Assembly (NCBI RefSeq): GCF_014842995.1
Contig: NZ_JACYXL010000011.1
Coordinates: 1-64,000, forward strand
Reading direction: 5' to 3'
Length of the DNA: 64,000 bases
Origin: Rhodanobacter sp. 7MK24
GTDB taxonomy: Bacteria > Pseudomonadota > Gammaproteobacteria > Xanthomonadales > Rhodanobacteraceae
Shown: positions 12,338 to 35,562 of the stretch, in pieces
How positions within the stretch are numbered: the stretch's first letter is position 1
Layout of the letters: each line of letters begins with the position of its first letter
Position numbers and translations under genes: made by a program
Notes under the pieces: generated by a model
The model's database searches: none
Told to the model about the DNA's origin: nothing
Seen by the model: only the letters and a program-made list of their open reading frames with translations

Positions 12338-13318
12338 ATGAGCGACGCCGCGCTGCCTTCCAACAATTCGCTGAGCACCTGGACCGATCTGTCCGGGTTC
12401 AACCGGCTGCGTGCGCAGGCCCAGAGCGACAGCAAGGCGGTGTTGCCGGCGGTGGCCAAGCAGTTCGAGGCCATGTTCACCCAGATGATGCTGAAGTCCA
12501 TGCGCGAAGCCAGCGACAGCCTTGGCGACGCGATGGGTGACAGCGACGCCGGCAAGACGTACCGCGACCTGTTCGACCAGCAGCTTTCGGTAAGCCTCTC
12601 CCAGAGCGGCAAGGGGCTGGGCATCGCGCAGATGCTGGTTCGCCAGCTGGGTGGACAGAACGCGTCGGCGGCAGGTGCCGCTGGCGGTGCGAACGGCTCG
12701 GCGGACGATCCCGACGGCATCGGCGACCCCACCAAGCTGCCGGCCAATGCCGACCAGTTCCAGCGTCGCCTCGCCAATGTGGTCGAGGCGGGGCGTGAAC
12801 TGGGCCGCAGCGCGATGAAATGGTTGCCGCAGGACGCGCAGGAGTTCGTGCGCGCGCTGGCGCCCTACGCCGAAGCGGCCGCCCAGAAGCTGGGTGTGTC
12901 GGTACGCACCGTGCTGGCCCAGGCGGCACTGGAAACCCAATGGGGCAAGCACATGCCGCGCAGCTCCGACGGCTCCACCAGCTTCAACCTGTTCGGCATG
13001 AAAGCCGGCGGCAGCTGGGACGGCCAGAAGGTCAGCGTACCCACACTGGAGTACGAAGATGGCGTGGCGGTGCGCCGGCATGCACAGTTCCGCGCCTACA
13101 GCTCGCCGGCGCAGTCATTCCAGGACTACGCCTCGCTGATCGCCTCCAACCCGCGCTACGCGGCGGCGAAGGGTCATGGCGACGACGTGCGAGGCTTTGC
13201 CAATGCGCTGGCGCAAGGTGGCTATGCCACCGACCCCGACTACGCCGAGAAGATCAGTGCCATCGCCAACAGTTCGCAGATGCACCAGGCGCTGGCGGCC
13301 TTGAGAGCCGGTATATGA
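12338..13318 (+). CDS. flgJ: Rod-cap protein and peptidoglycan hydrolase FlgJ
   Basis: 326 residues in two domains: an N-terminal rod-cap domain (about 30-105; AVAKQFEAMFTQMMLKSMRE) and a C-terminal glucosaminidase domain (about 165-325) with the catalytic Glu at about 199 (QAALETQWGKHMPRS). It opens the peptidoglycan for the growing rod. Last gene of the flgB operon. Its final codons lie inside the left arm of a large inverted repeat (13304-13335). Confidence 0.95.
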   Translation: MSDAALPSNNSLSTWTDLSGFNRLRAQAQSDSKAVLPAVAKQFEAMFTQMMLKSMREASDSLGDAMGDSDAGKTYRDLFDQQLSVSLSQSGKGLGIAQMLVRQLGGQNASAAGAAGGANGSADDPDGIGDPTKLPANADQFQRRLANVVEAGRELGRSAMKWLPQDAQEFVRALAPYAEAAAQKLGVSVRTVLAQAALETQWGKHMPRSSDGSTSFNLFGMKAGGSWDGQKVSVPTLEYEDGVAVRRHAQFRAYSSPAQSFQDYASLIASNPRYAAAKGHGDDVRGFANALAQGGYATDPDYAEKISAIANSSQMHQALAALRAGI

Positions 13319-13571
13319 CCTCCCCATGGCCCGCGTTGCCTTGCCGTAGCCACCAGGTGGTAGTGCGTGGCGCAGCGCCTGCCTGGCTGGCAGGCCAAGC
13401 CGCGCGCTGCCGCATGGCGGCTACGGCAAGGCAACCCTGCGGGCTGGGTCTGTTTGCCCGCATGCCGGCGTCATCACTCAGTCGTGGACGGACGTCCACT
13501 CCTTCGTTCTTCCTTGGCCTGCGCGCAAACAGCTCCCGGCGCGGGCCATGGGGAGGCCATATACCGGCTCT
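13304..13571. repeat. Nested inverted repeats between flgJ and flgK
   Basis: Two nested palindromes fill the 306-bp gap after flgJ. The outer arms, 13304-13335 and 13540-13571, are 32 bp each with one mismatch; the left arm contains the flgJ stop codon and the right arm ends at the -35 of the flgK promoter. The inner arms, 13335-13351 and 13419-13435, are 17 bp and perfect. A small hairpin (GTGGAC/GTCCAC) lies near 13484-13499. No gene is seen in the gap. It could be a REP/MITE-like element or a terminator structure. Confidence 0.85.
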
Positions 13572-13597
13572 AAAGATCCCGGCTGGCCTGCCGAACC
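13571..13597 (+). promoter_or_regulatory. Sigma-28 promoter of flgK-flgL
   Basis: TAAAGATC, 11 bases, GCCGAACC, a good FliA-type match 27 bp before the flgK ATG. FlgK and FlgL are late proteins in this hierarchy, as FlgN and FlgM are. Confidence 0.78.
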
Positions 13598-13624: not shown

Positions 13625-15517
13625 ATGTCCAGCCTGTTAAACATCGGTGTCACCGGGCTCAATGCGGCCCAGCTCGCCCTGCAGGTCACCGGCAACAACA
13701 TTGCCAATGCCAGTACCGCGGGCTACAGCGAACAGAGCGTCCAGCAAGTGGACATGGTGGGCCAGAACAATGGTCGCTACACCATGGGCACCGGTGTGGA
13801 CGTGATCGGCGTGCAGCGCGCCTACAGCCAATACCTCACGCAGGCGCTGTGGAGCAGCAACAGCACCATGCAGGGCGCCACCACCACCGACAACCTCACC
13901 ACCGCGCTGAACGGCCTGTTGCAGAACAGCGGCAACCTGCAGACCGCGCTGGACAGCTTCTACGGTGGCTTCAACGACGTGGCCAATTCGCCCAGCGACC
14001 TTTCCTCGCGACAGGCCTTGCTGGGTGACGCATCCACGCTAACCGCCGCTTTCAATACCTTCGGCCAGCAGCTCGACCAGCAGCGCCAACAGATCAACAC
14101 GCAGATTTCCAGCACCGTCAACGACATCAACTCGGTGGTGCAGCAGATCGCCACACTCAATACCAGCATCAGCCAGGCCGGCAGCACCCAGCCCAACGCG
14201 CTGCTCGACCAGCGCGATCAACTGGTCAACCAGCTGGCGGGAGATACCGGCATCTCTGTCGCCGCGCAGCCCGACGGCACGCTGAGCATCTACAGCACCT
14301 CCGGGCAGGTGATGGTGAGCGGCAGCTATTCTTACGGTTTCCAGGTGGGTAGCAGCCCCTACGACACCAGCACCACCGACGTGCTCAATGCCAGCGGCAC
14401 CGACATCACCTCCAGCCTTTCCGGCGGCACGTTGGGCGCATTGTTGTCGTACCGGACCAACACGCTCGATGCGGCGCAGAACCAACTGGGGCGCACCGCA
14501 CTGGCGGTGGCGCAGAGCGTCAACACACAGCAGTCGAATGGCCTGACCCTGACCGGGGCCAATGGCCAGCCGATCTTCGTGGTGCCGTATCCGAGTGTGG
14601 CCGCGATGAAGGCCAACCTGGGCACCGCCACGGTGAGCGCCAGCGTGAGCGACATTTCGTCGCTCACCAACGACAACTACATACTCACCTATACCGGAAG
14701 CAGCACCTCGCCCTCGGTCAACGGCTGGTCGCTGGCGACCACCAGCGGCACCTCGGTGGCGATGACCGCCAATGCCAACGGCACGCTGTCGGCCAACGGC
14801 CTTACCTTCACGGTGTCCAATGGCGCGCAGGTCGGCGACAGCTTCCAGATCCTGCCGACCCAAAACGCGGCTTCCGGTATCTCGGTGGCTACCAGCGACC
14901 CCAATGCCATCGCCGCGGCTGCGGCATTGATCGGCACGCCCGCCAGCGCCAACACCGGCGGTGCCACGGTGAGTTCGGTGAACGTGGCGGACAGCACCAA
15001 CGCCAACCTGTTCTCCGGCGCCACGGTGACGTTTGGCGCAGGCAACAGCTACACCGTCACCGACGGTGCGGGCAATACCACCACCGGCACCTATACCAGC
15101 GGCACGCCGATCCAGTTCGACGGCTGGAGCATGAGTCTCAGCGGCACCCCGGCCAGTGGCGACAGCTTCACCGTGGCCGAGAACAGCAGCGGCCTGAACG
15201 ACAACTCCAACGCGCTGACCATGGCCGGGCTGGGCAACGTCGGCGTGCTCGATGGCGGCAAGACCACCACGGTCGGGGCCTATGCCAACCTGACTAACCA
15301 GATCGGCTTGGCGGGCAGCATGGCCTCCAGCAATCTCACCACCCAGACCGGCCTCTACAACCAGGCGACCAGCGCGCAGCAAAGCCTGGCGGGCGTCAAC
15401 CTGGATCAGGAGGCGGCCAACCTCATCAAATACCAGCAGGCCTACCAGGCTTCCGCGCAGGTGATCTCCACCTCGCAGACCCTGTTTTCCAGCCTCATCA
15501 CCGCCATCCAGGCCTAG
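13625..15517 (+). CDS. flgK: Flagellar hook-associated protein 1 FlgK
   Basis: 630 residues. N-terminal SLLNIGVTGLNAAQLALQVT and NNIANASTAGYSEQSVQ, and C-terminal LDQEAANLIKYQQAYQASAQ, identify FlgK, the first junction protein between hook and filament. The central part is a long Ser/Thr/Gly-rich region with repeated beta-type segments (GTPxSGDSF type), as in many large FlgK proteins. A GGAGG site precedes ATG 13625. Confidence 0.96.
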   Translation: MSSLLNIGVTGLNAAQLALQVTGNNIANASTAGYSEQSVQQVDMVGQNNGRYTMGTGVDVIGVQRAYSQYLTQALWSSNSTMQGATTTDNLTTALNGLLQNSGNLQTALDSFYGGFNDVANSPSDLSSRQALLGDASTLTAAFNTFGQQLDQQRQQINTQISSTVNDINSVVQQIATLNTSISQAGSTQPNALLDQRDQLVNQLAGDTGISVAAQPDGTLSIYSTSGQVMVSGSYSYGFQVGSSPYDTSTTDVLNASGTDITSSLSGGTLGALLSYRTNTLDAAQNQLGRTALAVAQSVNTQQSNGLTLTGANGQPIFVVPYPSVAAMKANLGTATVSASVSDISSLTNDNYILTYTGSSTSPSVNGWSLATTSGTSVAMTANANGTLSANGLTFTVSNGAQVGDSFQILPTQNAASGISVATSDPNAIAAAAALIGTPASANTGGATVSSVNVADSTNANLFSGATVTFGAGNSYTVTDGAGNTTTGTYTSGTPIQFDGWSMSLSGTPASGDSFTVAENSSGLNDNSNALTMAGLGNVGVLDGGKTTTVGAYANLTNQIGLAGSMASSNLTTQTGLYNQATSAQQSLAGVNLDQEAANLIKYQQAYQASAQVISTSQTLFSSLITAIQA

Positions 15518-15530
15518 TGGGAGCGTCTCC

Positions 15531-16742
15531 ATGATCCGAGTTTCCACCAGTTGGATGTACCAGCAGGCGCTGGGTTCCATGCTCAGCCAGCAGGCGTCGA
15601 TCGCCGATACGCAGAACCAGGTGAGCAGCGGCCAGCGCATCAACCTGGCCTCCGACGACCCCAACGGCGCCGCGGAAGTGGTGTCGCTCAACCACGTGCT
15701 GGCCAACAACACGCAGTACACCTCCAACATCAACAACGCCAACGCGCGGCTCTCCACAGAGAGCAGCACGCTCGACTCCTTCAATTCGCTGCTCAATCAG
15801 GTGGATTCGATGGCGATCCAGGGCATCAACGGCACGCTGTCGTCGTCCGATCGCCAGGACATGGCCACGCAACTCGTGCAGATCCGCGCGCAACTGGTGC
15901 AACTGGCCAACACCTCGGATGCCAACGGCAACGCGTTGTTCGCGGGCACCAGCACCACCTCCACGCCGTTCGTGCTCAACAACGATGGCTCGGTGACCTA
16001 CAACGGCAACGGTTCCAACCAGATGGTGAGCATCGGCAGCGGCCTCACCCTGCCCGACAGCGACAATGGCGCCGCGTTGTTCATGAACACCCCGCAGGGC
16101 AACGGCTCGTTCGCCGCCAGCGCCGCGGCCGGCAATACCGGCACCCTGCTGGTGGGCGCCAACAGCGTCACCAACGCCACGCAGTGGGCCGCGGCCACCG
16201 CCGCCGGCCCGGTGAACTATACGATCAGCTTCGACGCCGCCGGCAACTGGACGGCTACCGATGCCGGTGGCAACACCGTGGCCACCGGCGCCTACCAGAA
16301 CGGCGGCAGCATCAGCTTCAACGGCATGAGTATCGCCCTGAGCGGCACGCCCAACGCAGGCGACACGGTGAGCGTGCAATCCGGCCAGACGCAGAGCGTG
16401 TTCTCCACGTTGACCAACATGATCAACGCGCTGAACAGCACCAGCACCAGCAACACGCAGCTCAGCAACACCCTGAGCCAGCAGATGGCATCGCTCGGCC
16501 AGGCGCAGAACCAGATCTCCGCCACCCAGACCGACGTGGGCGGTCGCCTGAACCGCCTGAGCCAACAGCAGACCGCCTACAGCGGCCTCACGCTGACCTA
16601 CCAGACCGTGCTCTCCGGCGTACAGGACACCGACATGGCCAGCGCCATCAGCCAGCTGGAGCTGCAAACCACCGCACTGCAAGCTTCGCAGCAGGTATTT
16701 GCGAAGGTGCAGGGGATGAGTCTGTTCAACTACATCCAGTAG
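15531..16742 (+). CDS. flgL: Flagellar hook-associated protein 3 FlgL
   Basis: 403 residues. Flagellin-like N terminus (MIRVSTSWMYQQALGSMLSQ) and C terminus (ALQASQQVFAKVQGMSLFNY) are those of FlgL, the second hook-filament junction protein. It follows flgK by 13 bp. A decayed second copy of its last 25 or so codons lies 1.1 kb downstream, on the far side of the methyltransferase gene. Confidence 0.96.
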   Translation: MIRVSTSWMYQQALGSMLSQQASIADTQNQVSSGQRINLASDDPNGAAEVVSLNHVLANNTQYTSNINNANARLSTESSTLDSFNSLLNQVDSMAIQGINGTLSSSDRQDMATQLVQIRAQLVQLANTSDANGNALFAGTSTTSTPFVLNNDGSVTYNGNGSNQMVSIGSGLTLPDSDNGAALFMNTPQGNGSFAASAAAGNTGTLLVGANSVTNATQWAAATAAGPVNYTISFDAAGNWTATDAGGNTVATGAYQNGGSISFNGMSIALSGTPNAGDTVSVQSGQTQSVFSTLTNMINALNSTSTSNTQLSNTLSQQMASLGQAQNQISATQTDVGGRLNRLSQQQTAYSGLTLTYQTVLSGVQDTDMASAISQLELQTTALQASQQVFAKVQGMSLFNYIQ

Positions 16743-16912
16743 CGGGCTTCGGTGCGGACGGTTGGCGCGGTCCGTGCTTCAGATGATCTGGGTCGATATG
16801 TGGCGCTGGCGGTTTGACGTCATCGTTCTGCGTGGCCCGACAGATAGGGCCTGAGCCGTCGTTGCTGGGCAGACCCGCTGCAGATTCATGGAGGCGATCG
16901 TTGCCGGTATCG
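16660..16912 (+). repeat. Repeat copy A: flgL 3' end plus downstream leader
   Basis: The last 80 bases of flgL and about 170 bases after it align along their whole length with 17815-18066. Shared blocks include TTCAAC-CATCCAG, GGCGCG-TCC-TGCTTCA, GGTTTGACG against GATTTGACG, and ATTGTTGCCGGT against ATCGTTGCCGGT. This copy keeps an intact flgL reading frame and so is the original. It carries a sigma-54-like site. Confidence 0.75.
16763..16777 (+). promoter_or_regulatory. Candidate sigma-54 promoter after flgL (copy A)
   Basis: TGGCGCGGTCCGTGC has GG and GC separated by 10 bases; compared with TGGCACG-N4-TTGC it differs at one base in the -24 part and one in the -12 part. It lies about 210 bp before the methyltransferase start. 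The same site recurs in repeat copy B. Confidence 0.45.
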
Positions 16913-16987
16913 CACGAGCCGGCCTGAAGTTGGCAGCAGCCAAGCCCGGCCCATGCCCCCCGAATTCGATGAGGGAGCTTGCTTGTT

Positions 16988-17674
16988 ATGGCATCAATGA
17001 TTCCAGCCGTGGATCACACGGCGTTGCGGAACCTGTTTGGCGAGGCCCGGGTGAAGAAGGGCATCGACGACATCTGGGATGTGGTTGGGGCCATATTCGA
17101 AAAGGAGCAAAAGGAGCTGCCGCCGTCGCTGGCCATGGCGCGCAAGGAATTGTCCTTTCACGATCATGTGAAGTTGCTGGGCTATCTCTGCCTGCTGATT
17201 GGCGAGGTGCCGGGGGACCTGGTCGAGATCGGCGTGTGGAAGGGCAAGTCGCTTTGCTTCATGAGCCAGATGTGCGGCAGGAAGCGGCGCCTGTTCGGAA
17301 TCGATCCGATGGAGCTCGAGCGGCAGGCCGATGAGCTTGGGTTCTATCACGGCAAGCTGTTCGCCGAGGCGACGCTGATACGCGGATACTCGGAGCTGGC
17401 GGCGGAGCGCTTTCTGGCGAATTCGCCCAAGGTTGCTTTGCTGCACATCGACGGCGGCCATGCTGGCCGCAACGTGCTGCTCGATTTCCTGCTGTACTCC
17501 ACCTGTGTGGTGAGCGGCGGTTTCGTCGTATTCGACGATTATGGAGATCACCTTTATTCGCCCGAGGTTGGCCCGGCAGTCGATCTGCTGCGGGCTGGCG
17601 GGTACTTCAATGGTTTCCGGGTGATAGGCCCGGTTGCGGGCTTCGAAAACAGCTACCTGCTGCAGCGCCTGTGA
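16988..17674 (+). CDS. SAM-dependent methyltransferase of the flagellin-glycan island
   Basis: 228 residues, class I methyltransferase of the Methyltransf_24/TylF-like type. The SAM-binding loop is at about 76-88 (GDLVEIGVWKGKSLCFM), an acidic residue after the next strand is in FGIDPMEL, and HIDGGHAGRNVLLDF (about 153-167) is the family metal/catalytic region. In P. syringae the flagellin viosamine carries a 2-O-methyl group made by a gene in its island; a similar sugar O-methylation is my inference here. ATG 16988 is preferred over TTG 16979 because GGGAG lies at the right distance. It is bracketed by two flgL-tail repeats. Confidence 0.75.
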   Translation: MASMIPAVDHTALRNLFGEARVKKGIDDIWDVVGAIFEKEQKELPPSLAMARKELSFHDHVKLLGYLCLLIGEVPGDLVEIGVWKGKSLCFMSQMCGRKRRLFGIDPMELERQADELGFYHGKLFAEATLIRGYSELAAERFLANSPKVALLHIDGGHAGRNVLLDFLLYSTCVVSGGFVVFDDYGDHLYSPEVGPAVDLLRAGGYFNGFRVIGPVAGFENSYLLQRL

Positions 17675-17814
17675 CATCGTGCGCAGCCAGGATGCGTGCC
17701 GACGCCTATGGGTAATGCCGTCGGCACCTGGTTGGGAATTCCGGTCCGGGGCTGCGCCTAGCAACGACATTGTTATCGATGGGTATCCGGTCGCGATTAC
17801 CGTTACGCACCGTG

Positions 17815-18066
17815 GGATTTTCCGCAGAGGCTGCTGCAGGTCCTGCAGCGGATGTTTGTGAAGGTGCGGAAGATGCGTCCGTTCAACCGCATCCAGCAGT
17901 CGGGCTTTGTAAAATCGCTTGGCGCGATCCATGCTTCATGACCTGGTCGGCATCCTGTGGCGACGGTGATTTGACGCCGCCATTTGGCTCGACAGGCTGG
18001 GTTTGTGCTGTCGCTGCCGCACAAGTCCGATACAGACCTCGTGCGGGGAGATTGTTGCCGGTGTTG
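17815..18066 (+). repeat. Repeat copy B: decayed flgL 3' end plus leader
   Basis: A degenerate duplicate of 16660-16912. Read in frame, about 17830-17898 encodes LQVLQRMFVKVRKMRPFNRI, against ALQASQQVFAKVQGMSLFNY at the FlgL C terminus; the flgL stop TAG is CAG here. The homology continues through a sigma-54-like site up to the ribosome site of the aminotransferase gene. The 386-bp gap 17675-18060 otherwise holds no gene that I can recognise. Confidence 0.75.
17920..17934 (+). promoter_or_regulatory. Candidate sigma-54 promoter of the aminotransferase operon (copy B)
   Basis: TGGCGCGATCCATGC keeps the GG-N10-GC spacing of sigma-54 promoters and aligns base for base with the site after flgL. 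It lies about 126 bp before the aminotransferase start. That the two invariant dinucleotides survive in an otherwise drifted repeat suggests that they are under selection. Confidence 0.5.
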
Positions 18067-19248
18067 AACAAGCTGACCAAGACCATACGCAGCAAATCCG
18101 ACCTCGCCATTCACGATGCGCCGCCGGCATTCGCCGAGCCGCTGCACGTAGGACGTCCCAACATCGGCAACCGCGACGCGTTCCTGCGCCGCATGGAGCA
18201 AGTGCTGGACAACCAGTGGCTGACCAACAACGGCCCGATGGTGCAGGAGTTCGAGCAGCGGATTGCCGAGCACTTGGGAGTGAAACACTGTGTGGCGATG
18301 TGCAACGGCACCATTGCGCTGGAAATCGCCATCCGCGCGCTGGGCCTGTCGGGTGAAGTGATCGTGCCGTCGTGGACCTTCGTGGCCACCGCACATGCGT
18401 TGTACTGGCAGGACATCATGCCGGTGTTTGCCGATATCGACCCGGTTACCCACAACCTTGATCCGGCTGCCGTGCGCCGAATGATCACGCCACGCACCAG
18501 CGGCATCATCGGCGTGCACCTGTGGGGACGGGCGGCGCCGGTGGAGGAACTGCGAGCCATTGCCGACGAGCACGGATTGAAGTTGATGTTCGACGCAGCA
18601 CACGCCTTCGGCAGCACTTATCAGGGACAGAGCATCGGTCGCTTTGGCGAATGCGAGGTCCTCAGTTTTCATGCCACCAAGGCCTTCAACACGATGGAAG
18701 GCGGTGCCGTCGTGACGAACAACGACGAATTGGCCGAGGCCATGCGTCTGATGCGCAATTTTGGTTTCAAGGGCTATGACAACGTCATACATCCGGGAAC
18801 CAATGGCAAGATGATCGAGGCCTGCGCCGCGATGGGTCTTGCCAATCTTGACGGCTTCAGCGAGGTCGTGGCCGCCAACGTGCGCAACCACGCAGCCTAT
18901 CGCGAGGCGTTGGCAGGCATACCGGGCATCTCGCTGCTGGACTACGACCCGGCCGAGCGCAACAGCCACCATTATGTGGTGATCGAGGTAGACGAGTCCT
19001 GTCCGGTCACTCGCGACGACATCATCGTGGCACTGCACGCGGAGAACATCCTCGCCCGCAAGTACTTCTGGCCTGGCTGCCACATGATGAAACCCTATCG
19101 TGATCTGTTTCCGCACGCGGGTTTGCTGCTCGAACATACGCGATTCGTCGCCGAGCGCGTGGTCGTGCTGCCCAACGGCACGGCGCTCACGGATGAGGTG
19201 ACCGCCGTCATTGCCGATACTTTACGGGTGCTGGCCACGGACATTTGA
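18061..19248 (+). CDS. PLP-dependent sugar aminotransferase (DegT/DnrJ/EryC1 family)
   Basis: 395 residues. The PLP lysine is K207 in SFHATKAFNTMEGG, and the ring-stacking aspartate is D178 in MFDAAHAFGS; NNGPMVQEFE and VIVPSWTFVATA are also typical. Likely role: transamination of a dTDP-4-keto-6-deoxyhexose, as by VioA (dTDP-viosamine synthesis). The exact sugar is inferred from the neighbours. GTG 18061 is chosen because GGGGAG lies 12 bases upstream and homology begins soon after; the longer ORF runs through the flgL-tail repeat. First gene of an operon of eight tightly packed genes. Confidence 0.85.
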   Translation: MLNKLTKTIRSKSDLAIHDAPPAFAEPLHVGRPNIGNRDAFLRRMEQVLDNQWLTNNGPMVQEFEQRIAEHLGVKHCVAMCNGTIALEIAIRALGLSGEVIVPSWTFVATAHALYWQDIMPVFADIDPVTHNLDPAAVRRMITPRTSGIIGVHLWGRAAPVEELRAIADEHGLKLMFDAAHAFGSTYQGQSIGRFGECEVLSFHATKAFNTMEGGAVVTNNDELAEAMRLMRNFGFKGYDNVIHPGTNGKMIEACAAMGLANLDGFSEVVAANVRNHAAYREALAGIPGISLLDYDPAERNSHHYVVIEVDESCPVTRDDIIVALHAENILARKYFWPGCHMMKPYRDLFPHAGLLLEHTRFVAERVVVLPNGTALTDEVTAVIADTLRVLATDI

Positions 19249-19250
19249 CC

Positions 19251-20783
19251 ATGATGCTCAACGTCATCGATTTTCTCGAGCAAGGCGCGTTGCGGCGTTT
19301 TCCCGACAAGGCTGCGATCGTCGAGGGCGGCCGGGTGCTCGCGTTCGCCGAGCTGGCTGCAGGTGCCAAGCTATGTGCTACGCAACTCGCGCGCCGCTTG
19401 GACGGAGTCAATCAGGCAGTCGCAGTCTACCTGCCCAAATGCGCCGAAACGGTGATCGCGAACCTGGGCATCGTCTATAGCGGCAATGCCTACTGCAATC
19501 TGGACATCAAGTCGCCGGCGCAGCGCATACGCAATATCCTGGACAAGATCGGGCCCGCCTGTGCGATTACCTCGCGTGCTCTTGCCGGCACTCTGCGCGA
19601 TATCGTCGGTCCGGACCTGGAGATCGCGTGCGTCGAGGATATCCTGGAAGGCGAGATCAACGATGCCCTGCTTCAGGATCGCTTGCGGCGAGTTATCGAC
19701 ACTGATCCCCTGTGCATCATCAATACATCGGGTTCGACCGGCACTCCGAAGGGTGTGGCACTCAGTCACCGGGGCACCATCGACTTCATGGAGTGGTTGT
19801 TCGCCACTTTCGATTTCGACGAAAGCGTGCGCATCGGCAGCCTTTCGCCGCTGTATTTCGATATCTACATCCTCGAGTTGTTCCTCTGCCTGTACAAGGG
19901 GGCGACACTCGTTTTCGTGCCCGAGCAAACGGCGACGTTCCCGGCTCGCCTGCTCGAGTTCCTGCACGACCAGCGAATCAGCTTCCTGTTCTGGGTACCC
20001 TCGATCATGGTGGCCATCGCGAACCTGGATCTGCTCGGAAAGTACGACCTGGCTGCCCTGGAAAACATCTTCTTCGCCGGCGAGGTATTCCCCACCAAGC
20101 AGCTCAACCACTGGCGGCGGACCCTGCCGAAGGCGCGCTTCGTCAACCTCTACGGGCCGATCGAGATCCACGTCGACTGCACCTATTTCATCGTCGACCG
20201 CGAATTCGACGACGACGAACCGCTACCCATCGGCCGTCCCTGTCGAAACACCGACATCCTCATCCTCGACGACGAAGGGCATTCATGTGCGCCCGGAGAG
20301 CGTGGCGAGCTATGCGTGCGCGGCAGTTCGCTTGCGCTCGGGTATTGGAATGACCCGGACAAGACGGCCCGGGCCTTCGCGCAAAACCCGTTGAACACGC
20401 GCTATGCGGAACGCATCTATCGCACCGGCGACGTGGCCTGGCGCCGCGAAGACGGCGAGATATTCCTGGTCGGGCGCAAGGATTTCCAGATCAAGCACAT
20501 GGGATACCGGATCGATCTGCAGGAGATCGAACATCAGGTGCATTGCGTGGAAGGCATCGGCCAGGCCTGTGTGCTTTACAACCAGGCCGTCAAGGAAATC
20601 ACATTGTTCTACGAGGTGCTTTCCGCGGATGTGGAGCCGGCGCACATCCGGCGCAGACTTGCGGAGATCTTTCCGAAATACATGATACCCACGGCATTCC
20701 GCTCCATGGCGTCCCTGCCGAGAAACCCCAACGGCAAGGTCGACCGCAACGGGCTGGCCATTCTGCTGTCCTCGCCGCAATGA
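19251..20783 (+). CDS. AMP-dependent acyl ligase (acyl-ACP/CoA synthetase type)
   Basis: 510 residues of the ANL superfamily. The adenylate loop is TSGSTGTPKGVALSHRG (from about residue 159); YRTGDVAWRREDGEIFLVGR and a C-terminal Lys in NPNGKVDRNGL complete the motif set. It would activate a carboxylic acid as its adenylate and load it on a thiol, most likely one of the two ACPs encoded just downstream; this partner choice is inferred. TTG 19245 overlaps the previous stop, but ATG 19251 is the simpler start. Confidence 0.85.
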   Translation: MMLNVIDFLEQGALRRFPDKAAIVEGGRVLAFAELAAGAKLCATQLARRLDGVNQAVAVYLPKCAETVIANLGIVYSGNAYCNLDIKSPAQRIRNILDKIGPACAITSRALAGTLRDIVGPDLEIACVEDILEGEINDALLQDRLRRVIDTDPLCIINTSGSTGTPKGVALSHRGTIDFMEWLFATFDFDESVRIGSLSPLYFDIYILELFLCLYKGATLVFVPEQTATFPARLLEFLHDQRISFLFWVPSIMVAIANLDLLGKYDLAALENIFFAGEVFPTKQLNHWRRTLPKARFVNLYGPIEIHVDCTYFIVDREFDDDEPLPIGRPCRNTDILILDDEGHSCAPGERGELCVRGSSLALGYWNDPDKTARAFAQNPLNTRYAERIYRTGDVAWRREDGEIFLVGRKDFQIKHMGYRIDLQEIEHQVHCVEGIGQACVLYNQAVKEITLFYEVLSADVEPAHIRRRLAEIFPKYMIPTAFRSMASLPRNPNGKVDRNGLAILLSSPQ

Positions 20784-21607
20784 AACGCGTGACCGAAGCC
20801 GGCGTGCTGCTGGAAGCCATGGACCGGATCGAGCGCAGTGGCGCGGAATTCGCCGTCAGTTTCTTCGCGCCGGCGTCGAAGATCGAGGTGTGGAGCGCGG
20901 AGGGGGTGCTCTCGATACTGCCGTGCGAAGGCGCGCTGCTGATACTGCGTCACGATGGTCCGTTGCTGCGGGTCAGCCACCTGGCATCCGATCAGCCGTC
21001 ATTGTCGGCAGCGCTCGGAAAACTCATCGCGATGATGCCGGACCAGCTCATGGTGGCCGATCTCGTCGGCAAGCCGGGAGATATCGAGCGGGTTGCCCAG
21101 GCATATCGTCGACACGGGTTCGCGCCATATGCGCAACTGGTGCGCATGCAACGCATGGGTGTGCCGACCATGACAGCGGATGGCGTGGTGGGCGTCGAAC
21201 TGGCTCGGGCGGAGGACGTGCCGACATTGCATGCCTTCATGCAGCGTTGGCTGGATCCCTTGTCGGAGCAGATACAAGGCGTGCGAGAACTGCAGGAGGC
21301 CGTGGCCGCGAGTGCCGTGTTCGTGGTGCGGGCGGGTTGCGAGCTGGCGGGCTTCCTGATCCTGGAGGCCACGGGACAGAGTGCGGTGCTGCGCTATTGG
21401 CATGTCGCCGGCCATTGTCACGGCCAAGGTATCGGGTCCCGACTCATGCATGCCTTTTTCGGCCGCTGCGCATCGAGTCGACGCGTTACGCTGTGGGTGG
21501 TCGCCGACAACGTCGACGCCATTGCCAAATACCATCATTACGGATTCAGCGAAGACGGCATGATTGACAGCATCATGGTGAGGCGAGCGGAGACGGCGAC
21601 GCGATGA
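20780..21607 (+). CDS. GNAT-family N-acyltransferase
   Basis: 275 residues. The C-terminal half (about 137-272) is a GNAT domain with the CoA/ACP phosphopantetheine loop HCHGQGIGSRLMHAFF (loop at 215-219) and the family ending NVDAIAKYHHYGF. The first 130 residues form a separate region that I do not recognise, perhaps a degenerate second GNAT fold. Likely role: moving the acyl group built on the ACP to the amino group of the sugar. ATG 20780 overlaps the ligase stop. Confidence 0.75.
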   Translation: MKRVTEAGVLLEAMDRIERSGAEFAVSFFAPASKIEVWSAEGVLSILPCEGALLILRHDGPLLRVSHLASDQPSLSAALGKLIAMMPDQLMVADLVGKPGDIERVAQAYRRHGFAPYAQLVRMQRMGVPTMTADGVVGVELARAEDVPTLHAFMQRWLDPLSEQIQGVRELQEAVAASAVFVVRAGCELAGFLILEATGQSAVLRYWHVAGHCHGQGIGSRLMHAFFGRCASSRRVTLWVVADNVDAIAKYHHYGFSEDGMIDSIMVRRAETATR

Positions 21608-21834
21608 AAAGCATCCTAGATATCCTGTCCGGCATCCGCCCCGAGTTCGATTTTTCGGCGTCGCAGGATTACCTCGCCGACGGCATGCTCGATTCTTTCG
21701 ACATGCTCGCCCTGGTTTCGGATCTGGACAGCGAGTTCGGTATCCGCATCGAGGGCACGCAGATCGTGCCGGAGAACTTCTGCAACCTGCAGGCGATCCG
21801 CCTGCTGCTCGGCAGATACGGTGTCGACGCATGA
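21604..21834 (+). CDS. Acyl carrier protein (first of two)
   Basis: 76 residues with the phosphopantetheine serine at Ser31 in GMLDSFDMLALVSDLDSEFG. Acidic overall. It overlaps both neighbours by 4 bp, so it belongs to the same coupled operon. It probably carries the starter loaded by the AMP ligase or the chain handed to the GNAT; which one cannot be told. Confidence 0.85.
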   Translation: MKSILDILSGIRPEFDFSASQDYLADGMLDSFDMLALVSDLDSEFGIRIEGTQIVPENFCNLQAIRLLLGRYGVDA

Positions 21835-22907
21835 ATCTCGTCTTCCACGGGAAAAGGATCGAGGGGCTGCTGGCAGTGCTGCCAGCCAACGAGCGCCTGT
21901 TCGTCGACGAGATGGACCAGTTCGATTTCCCGCGTGCGCGCTCTTTGAAGCTCAAGGAAGTCATGGGCTACGACCGCCATCGGATCGTTGATGGCCCGGT
22001 GTGCGTGTCCGACCTCGCGGTTCACGGTCTCGAGCATCTGTTCGCGCAGGGTCTGCTGGGTCGCGACGATTTTGATGCGCTCATCCTGGTGACCCAGTCG
22101 CCCGACTACTTCATGCCGGCCACCAGCAGCGTGATTCAAGGCCGGCTCGGGCTCAAGCACGACATGTTCTGCATGGACATCAACCAGGGTTGCGCCGGCT
22201 TTCTGATCGGCCTGTACCAGGCTTTCATGCTGCTGGAGCAGCCGGCCATCCGTCGCGTGGTGCTGGTGAATGCCGACGTGATGAGCCGCAAGGTGTCCGT
22301 GCGCGACCGCAACAGCTATCCCTTGATCGGCGATGCCGCGTCGATCACCGTGATCGGCCGTTGCGACGACGACGCGCCGATCCATGCCAATCTCAAGATG
22401 GACGGCAGCCGGCGCGATGCGTTGATGATACCGGCCGGCGGGATGCGGGAACCGTCGAGCGCGGAGACGCGCGAGCTGCATGCAGACGCGGAAGGCAACC
22501 TGCGGGCACGCGACGACCTGGTGATGGATGGCTCGGCGGTCTTCAATTTCGTCCAGACCGAGGTGCCCCCGATGATCGAGGCCTTGCTAGCGGCTGCGCA
22601 GACGGAGGCCGCTGCGGTGGACACCTATCTGTTCCATCAGCCCAACCGGTTCATGCTGCAGAAGCTGGCCGACAAGTTGCAGGTACCCTACGCAAAGATG
22701 CCAAGCAACGTGGTGGAGCATTTCGGCAATTCCAGCGGTGTCACGATACCGCTTGCATTAGCCCTGAACCTGCGCGAGCAGGTCTTGGACAAAACACTTA
22801 CGGCGGTACTCGGCGGCTTCGGCGTCGGGCTCACATGGAGCTCGATGCTGCTTCCGTTGGGGCCATTGGCATTCTGCGACATCATCGACTATCCACGGGT
22901 GCACTGA
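21831..22907 (+). CDS. 3-oxoacyl-ACP synthase III-type ketosynthase
   Basis: 358 residues, FabH/KAS III family. The full catalytic triad is visible: Cys121 in DINQGCAGFLIGL, His269 in LFHQPNRFMLQKL and Asn300 in FGNSSGVTIPL. KAS III enzymes condense a short acyl starter with malonyl-ACP. The island lacks any KAS I/II, dehydratase or enoyl reductase, so one condensation cycle is the simplest reading. It lies between the two ACP genes. Confidence 0.88.
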   Translation: MNLVFHGKRIEGLLAVLPANERLFVDEMDQFDFPRARSLKLKEVMGYDRHRIVDGPVCVSDLAVHGLEHLFAQGLLGRDDFDALILVTQSPDYFMPATSSVIQGRLGLKHDMFCMDINQGCAGFLIGLYQAFMLLEQPAIRRVVLVNADVMSRKVSVRDRNSYPLIGDAASITVIGRCDDDAPIHANLKMDGSRRDALMIPAGGMREPSSAETRELHADAEGNLRARDDLVMDGSAVFNFVQTEVPPMIEALLAAAQTEAAAVDTYLFHQPNRFMLQKLADKLQVPYAKMPSNVVEHFGNSSGVTIPLALALNLREQVLDKTLTAVLGGFGVGLTWSSMLLPLGPLAFCDIIDYPRVH

Positions 22908-29044: not shown

Positions 29045-29179
29045 GATTCGGGTGTGCTCTGCCTTCTTGGCGCCACGGGGCCGGCGGGCGCATCGCATCT
29101 GCCGGTGCCTTGCGAGTCGTGCAGACAGTACCGGCATCGCCGGTTTTCTGTCGGTTGGGAAACAGCCTGAAAGATGCCA

Positions 29180-29194
29180 GCAAACATGGTGCCA
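29180..29194 (-). promoter_or_regulatory. Sigma-54 promoter of the large glycosyltransferase
   Basis: On the minus strand TGGCACCATGTTTGC, with GG-N10-GC spacing and seven of eight consensus bases, followed by T. It lies 136 bp before the glycosyltransferase start. The 408-bp gap 29045-29452 holds this site and the fliC promoter pointing the other way, and no gene. Confidence 0.8.
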
Positions 29195-29334
29195 ATCCGC
29201 GAGACCTCTCCTTACCAATAGGTGGGCGCGAGACGGCTGTCGGGTGTGATCCGTCATCCATGGCCCAACCGGCTTCTTCTGGCGGACGGTAAAGGCCGGG
29301 GTGGCGCACGTTCCGTGCCAACAAAAAATATCGC

Positions 29335-29452: not shown

Positions 29453-30700
29453 ATGGCACTGGTTATTAACACCAACATCGCCTCGCTGCAGGCGCAGAAC
29501 AACCTGGTCAGCTCGCAGAACGCGCTGAACCAGGCCACCGAGCGCCTGTCTTCAGGCCTCAAGATCAACAGCGCCGCCGACAATGCGGCGGGTTACGCGA
29601 TTGCGAACCGCTACACCACCCAGATCGGCGGCCTGCAGCAGGCCAGCTCCAACGCGTCGGACGCCATCAATCTGGCGCAGACCGCCGGCAGCGCGCTGGA
29701 CCAGGTCACCTCCAACCTCAACGCCATCCGTGATCTGGCCGTGCAGGCTGCCAACGGCACCTACTCCGCCTCCGACCGCGCTTCGATGAACGTGGAAGTA
29801 CAGCAGCGTCTGCAGGAAATCAGCCGCATCGCCAACCAGACCACGTTCAACAACTCCAATATCCTGAACGGTGCGCTGGGCAACACCACCTTCCAGGTGG
29901 GTGCCAACGTGGGCCAGACCATCAGCGTGGATCTGCAGACCAACGTGCAGGCTTCCGCGATGGGCGGCATCGGCGCCTACGACTCGGGCAACCTGAGCGG
30001 CGCGTTCGTCACCAGCGGCTCCAACCCGGTTGCCACCGGCCTGGACATGAGCACGATCACCATCGGCCTGACCGGCTCCAATGGCGCATCCAGCAGCATC
30101 ACGCTGAGCGGCGTCGCCACCAGCGCGCAGGCACTGGCCGATGCGATCAATGCCCAGACCAGCGGCGCCGTCAATGCGGCGGTGGATGGCAATGGCGGCA
30201 TCAACATCTTCACCAGCACCACCAGCACCGGCTTCAGCGTTTCGGGCGGCGCGTTTGACGCCGGTTCCGCAGGCGGTGCCAGCGACAGCCTCACCTCGTC
30301 CGCAACCACCGGCGGCGTGGCGGGCCTGGCGTCGGGCAGCTACACCGCCGGGACTGCCATCAATTCCGCAACCAGCGGGACGAGTGGCATGCTGGCCAAC
30401 GGCGACGTGAACAGCGTTCAGGACGCCAATGCGCTGATTGCCCAGGTCGACTCGGCCCTGTCCACGGTCAGCAACTTCGCCACCCAACTGGGTGCAGTGC
30501 AGAACCGCTTCCAGTCCACCATCTCGACGCTGTCGGCGCAGACCACCAACCTGCAGTCTTCGCAGTCCACCATTCAAGACGCGGACTTCGCGGCCGAAAC
30601 AGCAGCATTGAGTCAGGCGAGCGTGCTGCAGCAGGCGGGTATCTCGGTGCTGGCGCAGGCCAACTCCAATCCGCAGATGGCGCTGAAGCTCCTGCAATAA
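29453..30700 (+). CDS. fliC: Flagellin FliC
   Basis: 415 residues. Conserved D0/D1 N terminus (MALVINTNIASLQAQNNLVS) and C terminus (QANSNPQMALKLLQ) enclose a variable Ser/Thr/Gly-rich centre (about 175-325), the likely O-glycosylation surface. The flg22-type stretch is residues 30-51, with Asp43 and Asn44 where the standard peptide has Asp-Asp. Exported through the flagellar channel with FliS as chaperone. GGAGA precedes the ATG. It is the only flagellin in the window. Confidence 0.97.
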   Translation: MALVINTNIASLQAQNNLVSSQNALNQATERLSSGLKINSAADNAAGYAIANRYTTQIGGLQQASSNASDAINLAQTAGSALDQVTSNLNAIRDLAVQAANGTYSASDRASMNVEVQQRLQEISRIANQTTFNNSNILNGALGNTTFQVGANVGQTISVDLQTNVQASAMGGIGAYDSGNLSGAFVTSGSNPVATGLDMSTITIGLTGSNGASSSITLSGVATSAQALADAINAQTSGAVNAAVDGNGGINIFTSTTSTGFSVSGGAFDAGSAGGASDSLTSSATTGGVAGLASGSYTAGTAINSATSGTSGMLANGDVNSVQDANALIAQVDSALSTVSNFATQLGAVQNRFQSTISTLSAQTTNLQSSQSTIQDADFAAETAALSQASVLQQAGISVLAQANSNPQMALKLLQ

Positions 30701-33827: not shown

Positions 33828-34137
33828 GAACGACGAGGCGTGCGCAAATTTCCCGACGCGCGTTATACGACTTTAGCCGCCCCTGTCGTTCGAATGGCGG
33901 TTTGCCTAAATCTTTCCGCATCATGCGTTTGCGCCAAACGGTTACGCATGGGGCAGTCGTGCGTGCACATTTTATTGACGCCGCGTGATGATCAATTGTC
34001 ATACCTATCTGCAGAATTGGCCTTATTGATGCTTTCTGTTCAGTGAGCCAGCGACGGAAAGCTGGCACTGACGAAGTCTGCGTCGCTCCTTCAGGAAGCC
34101 AAGCGAGCGCGTGAAGCGGGTTCAAGGATTAGGGGTC

Positions 34138-35562
34138 ATGCAAAAATTTGATTTTCTCGTCATCGAGTCCAGCGCGACTCGTGCAGATGCCGTGATGTCG
34201 GCACTTCACTTCCTCGGCTATCGCCCGCAACGTGCGGCCGACTGCCAATCGGTTGACGCCGCCACCCACGCTTGGCAAGGCGCGTACGTAGGTAGTGATG
34301 CAGACGAGGTAGAGGTCGAGCACCAATTGGCCTTGCTCGGCGACGCGATAAACCGCATTCCCATGCTGGTGGCCGCGGATGCGCCGCTGGCTGCGCGCTA
34401 TGGGAAGGTGACTCCTGCTTCCCGTGCTGCGCTCGTGGAATTTCCCCTGCGCTACGAACAGATGGCCGAGGCGCTGCGCGGCATTCATGCGCGCCTGCTG
34501 GGTGGCCAGTCGGGTTCATTGCGCTTCGTGGGCCATTCGACGCCGATGCTGCATGTCAATGCGTTGATCCGCCAGGTGGCTCCGTTCGATTCCACCGTGC
34601 TGGTGCTGGGCGAGTCCGGCACCGGCAAGGAAATGGTGGCGCGCGCCATCCATGAGCATTCCCAGCGCAGGGACAAGCCGCTCGTCGCGATCAACTGCGG
34701 TGCGATCCCGGCCGAATTGCTGGAAAGCGAGCTGTTCGGCCACGAAAAGGGCTCCTTCACGGGGGCGATCAGCGCACGCAAGGGCCGTTTCGAGCTGGCG
34801 GAAGGTGGCACGCTGTTCCTCGATGAAATCGGCGACATGAGCCTGCCGATGCAGGTGAAACTGCTGCGCGTGCTGCAGGAGCGCGTGTACGAGCGCGTGG
34901 GCGGCGCCAAGACTCAGCGTTGCGATGTGCGCGTCATCGCCGCCACCCACCGCGATCTGGAACAGTCCATCACCGATGGGCGTTTCCGCGAGGATTTGTT
35001 CTACCGCCTGTCCGTGTTCCCGCTGGAACTGCCGGCGCTGCGCGAGCGGCTGGAAGACCTGCCGGTGCTGATCGATGAGTTCAACCAGCGCCTGGCCAGC
35101 CGCGGTCTCGGCGTGGCGCGCTTCAGTGCGGGCGCAATGCAGACGCTGCGTGAGCATTCTTGGCCGGGCAACGTGCGCGAGCTGGCCAATCTGGTCGAAC
35201 GCATGGCGATCCTGTGTCCGCATGCCGAGGTGCGCGCCAGCGAATTACCGTCGAAATACCGTCACGTGCCCACGGGCGCGGAGGCACATGGTGCTGCCCT
35301 GTTGGCGCTGATGGAGGAAAACCTGCCGTCAGCGCCAGTGTTTGGCATGCATGCTGTGGATGAGTCGCAGCGTCTGCTGCCCGAAGACGGCATCGACCTG
35401 AAGGATCATCTTGCCGACATCGAGGTGGGGCTGATCCGCCAAGCGCTCGACGCCACCGGCGGTGTGGTGGCGCATGCCGCGCGTCTGCTGCATATGCAGC
35501 GCACGACGCTGGTGGAGAAGTTGCGCAAGTACGGGCTGCAGGCCAGCGGCATAGCGGCCTGA
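34138..35562 (+). CDS. fleQ: Flagellar master regulator FleQ (sigma-54 activator)
   Basis: 474 residues: an N-terminal FleQ/REC-like domain without the phosphoacceptor set (about 1-125), a sigma-54 AAA+ domain (about 135-375) with Walker A GESGTGKE at 159-166 and the sigma-54 contact loop reading GSFTGA (about 205), and a C-terminal Fis-type helix-turn-helix (about 440-468, [20 protein letters not shown]). FleQ turns on the sigma-54 flagellar promoters seen in this window and responds to c-di-GMP and FlhG. ATG 34138 has AGGGG just upstream. Confidence 0.93.

Follow-up and report, generated by a model that had tools for sequence, protein, structure and literature searches.

A repeated flgL 3' end and leader flank a methyltransferase gene in a putative flagellar glycosylation island of Rhodanobacter

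Flagellum-glycosylation islands have been described as variable genes lying between conserved flagellar genes, with exchange by homologous recombination proposed for them (Lopez-Perez et al. 2014, PMC4033161), and in two Pseudomonas aeruginosa comparisons from the same account FlgL is the boundary gene with a peak of changes (PMC4033161). The viosamine island of Pseudomonas syringae pv. tabaci 6605 comprises vioA, vioM, vioT, vioS, vioB, vioR and acp, and deletion of vioM in this strain yields a demethylated terminal sugar (PMC3927599). Regarding control, RpoN2 and FleQ regulate flagellin-glycosylation genes in Xanthomonas oryzae (PMC8657755), and FleQ is reported to bind downstream of RpoN sites in P. 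aeruginosa (Jyot et al. 2002, via PMC6120874). Such islands vary between close relatives, and the route by which new genes reach flagellar control is worth knowing. Here we describe a locus in a 64,000-nucleotide stretch of Rhodanobacter sp. 7MK24 (the window), in which a methyltransferase gene is flanked on either side by a copy of the flgL 3' end with the leader behind it (copies A and B).

The island between flgL and fliC

The island sits between the conserved flagellar genes flgL and fliC, and carries genes for a methyltransferase, an aminotransferase, an AMP-binding ligase, a GNAT acetyltransferase, a carrier-protein-like frame, a KAS III-like synthase, a reductase and a large glycosyltransferase, the last on the opposite strand and similar in size to VioT. 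The features referred to below are as follows.

15531-16742, + strand: flgL, hook-filament junction protein, intact, 403 aa (Pfam Flagellin_N/Flagellin_C; 97% amino acid identity to the flgL product of relative G013)
16677-16742, + strand: copy A tail, the functional flgL 3' end, 66 bases (left repeat edge under looser scoring)
16743-16924, + strand: copy A leader, upstream of the methyltransferase gene (aligns with the copy B leader)
16762-16778, + strand: copy A predicted sigma-54-like promoter site, TTGGCGCGGTCCGTGCT (pattern match; 23.0 of 26 in the consensus scan)
16813-16819, + strand: copy A TTTGACG motif (read from the sequence; 51 bases past the start of the sigma-54-like site)
16988-17674, + strand: methyltransferase gene, Methyltransf_24/TylF type, 228 aa (Pfam)
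17675-17833, no strand: 159-base spacer from the methyltransferase stop to copy B (BLAST, shuffles)
17834-17899, + strand: copy B tail, apparent relic of the flgL 3' end, stop replaced by CAG (49/66 identical to copy A)
17900-18078, + strand: copy B leader, running into the aminotransferase gene start (strict and looser alignment, shuffles)
17919-17935, + strand: copy B predicted sigma-54-like promoter site, TTGGCGCGATCCATGCT (pattern match and consensus scan)
17970-17976, + strand: copy B TTTGACG motif (51 bases past the start of the sigma-54-like site)
18061-19248, + strand: DesI/VioA-like sugar aminotransferase gene (Pfam DegT_DnrJ_EryC1; start GTG 18061 or TTG 18064)
19251-22907, + strand: genes for the AMP-binding ligase, GNAT acetyltransferase, small carrier-protein-like frame and KAS III-like synthase (Pfam, NCBIfam)
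29453-30700: flagellin gene (fliC)
34111-35562: fleQ gene

Among solved structures, 2po3 comes closest to the aminotransferase (E 4.4e-124; labelled 4-dehydrase in the table), and we take it to be DesI. The NCBIfam PLP_DesI score of the aminotransferase, 500 bits, lies under the cut-off of 650. The carrier-protein-like frame gave a weak match (E 0.00036), also under the NCBIfam cut-off. Because the genes at 19251-22907 are closely spaced, we infer that they form an operon. Taken together, the island genes have the look of a route to an acylated amino sugar, and the locus appears to resemble a viosamine-type flagellin-glycosylation island placed between flgL and fliC. Its carrier protein, KAS III, reductase, acetyltransferase, methyltransferase and large glycosyltransferase are assigned at the level of protein family.

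The methyltransferase shares 78% amino acid identity with its counterparts in relatives G006 and G010 and is under purifying selection against the latter (dN 0.134, dS 1.504). At E <= 1e-40, 3 of 233 family genomes gave a match, the window's own included. A further scan, of named genomes, yielded 12 loci, in Rhodanobacter sp. C06, Pseudomonas (6), Xanthomonas (3), Castellaniella (1) and Pantoea (1); in Pantoea dispersa a frame upstream resembles FliD by eye.

Elsewhere in the window, inverted repeats occupy 13300-13575, between flgK (13625) and a frame that ends at 13318. The segment 13329-13444 is complementary to itself at 74%, and 13300-13335 recurs in inverted form at 13540-13575 (94%). 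They may be REP-type elements. A segment near the window start (200-400) resembles a transposase remnant by eye.

The repeat and the flgL border in relatives

The original prediction, made from the window's letters, held that a repeat of about 250 bp brackets the methyltransferase gene, and the repeat of flgL tail and leader proved genuine. Strict local alignment of 16400-16978 with 17675-18100 scored 104, whereas 1000 dinucleotide shuffles of the second segment averaged 20.7 and peaked at 35. The strict core joins 16688-16919 to 17845-18073 (238 columns, 69.7% identity), and looser scoring widens it to 16677-16924 against 17834-18078; the predicted match thus stood, with its left edges drawn 17 and 19 bases too far out and its right edges 12 short. 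The prediction had also called for a shuffled-sequence control on the match, and none of 1000 shuffles equalled the score of the tail alone (50 for 16676-16742 against 17834-17900; shuffle maximum 26) or of the leader alone (64 for 16743-16924 against 17901-18078; shuffle maximum 30). In self-BLAST of the 64-kb window (word 7, E <= 1e-4) the pair was the top of 8 off-diagonal matches (E 7.6e-15), and at word size 11 it went undetected. Extension beyond these edges is unsupported on either side: 480 of 1000 shuffles did equally well for the flgL body against 17675-17833, and 161 of 1000 for 16925-16987 against the aminotransferase 5' end. By this last comparison, a candidate aminotransferase 5' remnant ahead of the methyltransferase gene is not supported. 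The 159 bases of 17675-17833 had no clear match among the loci searched by BLAST, nor in the flgL body.

The peptides predicted for the two tails, LQASQQVFAKVQGMSLFNYIQ followed by a stop in copy A and LQVLQRMFVKVRKMRPFNRIQQ in copy B, are as described, including the change of the stop to CAG in the latter. The tails differ at 17 of 66 positions, distributed 6, 8 and 3 over codon positions 1, 2 and 3, and the mismatches of the copy A tail to G010 fall 3, 2 and 8; by this spread copy B bears no sign of retention at the protein level and copy A does. The flgL tail of copy B looks like an untranslated, drifting relic. About 30% of positions differ between the copies; this exceeds the dS of flgL to G013 (0.17) and falls short of that of the aminotransferase to G007 (0.98), so the event is probably not recent, although the leader may outpace silent sites in its rate of evolution. 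By eye, a hairpin that follows flgL in both G007 and G008 is absent from copies A and B, so the two copies are apparently closer to each other than to these relatives.

For synteny, 61 genomes were searched with 16500-18200, of which 26 matched (the window's own genome counted) and 22 matched the flgL end. Twenty stretches were extracted from relatives, one genome per species, and 16 of them contain flgL. All 16 have one tail match each; five further, shorter flgL loci gave one match in three and none at threshold in two, and a second tail or leader match was found in none of these 21 flgL loci, whose stretches end between about 0.4 kb (L041) and about 13 kb past the gene. In G007 and G008 a single flgL tail directly adjoins the aminotransferase gene (83% and 81% amino acid identity), the arrangement that the prediction had proposed to look for in relatives without the methyltransferase: that gene is absent between the two, and from the rest of both drafts (87% complete) at E <= 1e-40. 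G006 and G010 have flgL, then a hexapeptide acyltransferase-like gene, then the methyltransferase (by Pfam for G010). In G013 and G002, the closest relatives by flgL, unrelated sequence begins immediately after the gene, with no leader seen. Island content thus differs behind flgL among G013, G002, G006/G010 and G007/G008. Viewed from the aminotransferase, flgL lies within 3 of 30 loci examined (the window, G007 and G008) and outside the stretch examined, which reached about 1.5 kb upstream in most, for the other 27; the flgL-aminotransferase order could for this reason have multiple origins.

The affinity of flgL itself shifts near its end. As far as 16676, the window is linked by 124 sites with G013 and by 16 with G002; beyond that point the counts are 1 and 5 (Fisher p 2e-4, for a split picked post hoc, after the tail was seen); from these sites, the lineage that changed in the tail may be the window's or that of G013. 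The copy B tail is slightly nearer to G002 than to copy A (51/66 against 49/66 bases).

Leaders and predicted sigma-54 sites

Each leader carries the core TTGGCGCG-N5-TGCTTC, also present in G007 and G008. The sigma-54 consensus has GG at -24 and GC at -12, 12 bases apart. The core has this GG/GC arrangement. In 15 genomes of the genus the core pattern had five matches, four of them these leaders, and the reversed pattern four; as these leaders were the source of the pattern, this speaks for rarity elsewhere and is not an independent discovery. Both sites score 23.0 of 26, tied 5th-8th among the 365 sites listed in the window. Higher-scoring sites include 42790, ahead of fliL, and 35590, upstream of fliF, and similar scores also occur inside reading frames (54105, 50187), so that the score proves nothing by itself.

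When leader A was compared with the post-flgL regions of the 16 relatives, its best scores were 32 in G007 and 30 in G008, the next being 26; leader B scored 29 in G007, 26 in G012 and 20 in G008. Shuffles as good numbered, per 1000 under strict scoring, 1 for A-G007, 0 for A-G008, 3 for B-G007 and 204 for B-G008, and under relaxed scoring 1, 9, 4 and 53, respectively; the comparison of leader B with G008 is not significant. The strict A-G007 match is confined to a 21-base core, and leader homology with relatives therefore rests mainly on the promoter core.

Copies A and B also have TTTGACG in common, in each case 51 bases past the start of the sigma-54-like site. The motif stands at a different distance in G007 and G008, and its conservation is accordingly claimed for the two copies only. 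We guess that it could be a regulator site, possibly for FleQ, whose gene lies in the same window as both sites. The same element at the same 51-base distance fits the second of two readings offered in the original prediction, that a leader was copied so that both transcripts share their control.

Other elements were looked for in the same region. A structured RNA leader was rejected (z-scores 0.08 and 0.35), a search of 15000-20000 against Rfam gave nothing of weight (best hit E 0.12, with 15.8 bits where the gathering score is 40), and sigma-70-type promoters numbered 0 in 15400-19400 with 0.7 expected. A terminator-like site at 17831-17851 was discounted, the region having three such sites with 2.7 expected. 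On the minus strand, at 29179-29321, two further sigma-54-like sites (29305 and 29179) lie close to where the large glycosyltransferase frame has its 5' end; they would be upstream of the gene if its start were the internal methionine near 29047.

Origin of the repeat and comparison with described systems

We favour, at a probability of roughly 65%, a recombination at the flgL border by which the methyltransferase gene was added and two copies of tail and leader were left, giving each unit its own predicted flagellar-class promoter. The earlier order would have been flgL, a leader with a sigma-54-like promoter and the aminotransferase operon, the order still present in G007 and G008. Recombination through the flgL 3' end and leader would then have imported a methyltransferase gene of the type that lies close to flgL in G006 and G010, leaving a second tail and leader behind, so that copy A would stand ahead of the methyltransferase gene and copy B ahead of the aminotransferase operon. 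In copy B, the flgL portion would no longer be translated as such and would drift. The insertion was presumably of the Campbell or border-crossover kind, and either insertion with duplication or duplication followed by replacement could have been the order of steps. Since a sigma-54-like site is kept in each leader, both units should switch on with the middle flagellar genes, and sigma-54 control of both appears plausible from the sites. The methyltransferase would by this account methylate a viosamine-like flagellar sugar.

Such a border recombination would account for the repeat, for the relic tail of copy B and for the single-copy state of relatives. The first reading of the original prediction, in which entry of the methyltransferase duplicated the flgL tail, gains support from the single tails of G007 and G008 without the gene; with the shared element, both of its readings fit and may describe one event. 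Several results count against the recombination: there is no leader match in G006 or G010, where a hexapeptide-type gene separates flgL from the methyltransferase, the order flgL-leader-methyltransferase occurs in none of the relatives' genomes searched, the leader is not seen in G013, the closest relative by flgL, and leader B fails to match G008 significantly.

Other origins have to be weighed against these observations. Had flgL tail, leader and aminotransferase been doubled in tandem before anything was imported, the upstream aminotransferase being lost later with the methyltransferase in its place, a longer repeat unit would be expected, and the B-side repeat does extend about 14-17 bases into the aminotransferase start. 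However, no aminotransferase remnant is found between leader A and the methyltransferase gene (161/1000 shuffles), and nothing is recognised at 17675-17833; an old remnant could have decayed past recognition. We consider this course unlikely. Stepwise island replacement, in which an incoming flgL tail-leader-methyltransferase segment landed upstream of a resident tail and copies A and B stem from two lineages, draws on the switch of tail affinity within flgL, on the slight nearness of the copy B tail to G002 and on the FlgL-bounded island exchange reported for P. aeruginosa (PMC4033161). The switch involves a tail of only 66 bases, though, in which the changed party may be the window or G013, and by eye the copies have the same short intergenic form as against G007 and G008, which points to one source; we give replacement, too, a low probability. 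Chance or convergence of GC-rich sequence, with no duplication at all, might be entertained for copies that are short and about 70% identical, but with 0 of 1000 shuffles reaching the tail or leader score and an alignment collinear over 238 columns, across the stop codon, it is exceedingly improbable.

Under the favoured border recombination, the locus apparently preserves the trace of one gene's addition at the flgL border, flanked on both sides by the border promoter region. The scar suggests how glycosylation clusters may gain a gene while keeping flagellar control, and gives a testable link between island recombination and the regulation of island genes. A bolder and doubtful extension is that the flgL 3' end and sigma-54 leader act as a portable docking unit, re-created at each capture of a glycan gene; if true, an added gene would gain a flagellar-class promoter for itself, and the gene after it would retain one.

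Our literature searches found no title describing a duplicated flgL tail or leader, and the main text of PMC4033161 has no word beginning with "duplicat". The gigX genes of X. oryzae are flagellin-glycosylation genes of the flagellar cluster under RpoN2/FleQ (PMC8657755), whereas control in the window is only predicted; the parts of the gigX account available mention no duplicated flgL tail or leader, unlike the window. With the viosamine island the locus has in common an aminotransferase, methyltransferase, large glycosyltransferase, KAS III, acetyltransferase, reductase and carrier protein (PMC3927599), a likeness in the kinds of genes. The P. syringae island is flanked by glutamine synthetase and histidine kinase genes, and that of the window by flgL and fliC; the AMP-binding ligase of the window is absent from the P. 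syringae gene list (PMC3927599). As in the islands of PMC4033161, variable glycosylation genes are bordered by flgL in the window; the exchanges described there swap whole islands, whereas here one gene has apparently been added and boundary and leader occur twice.
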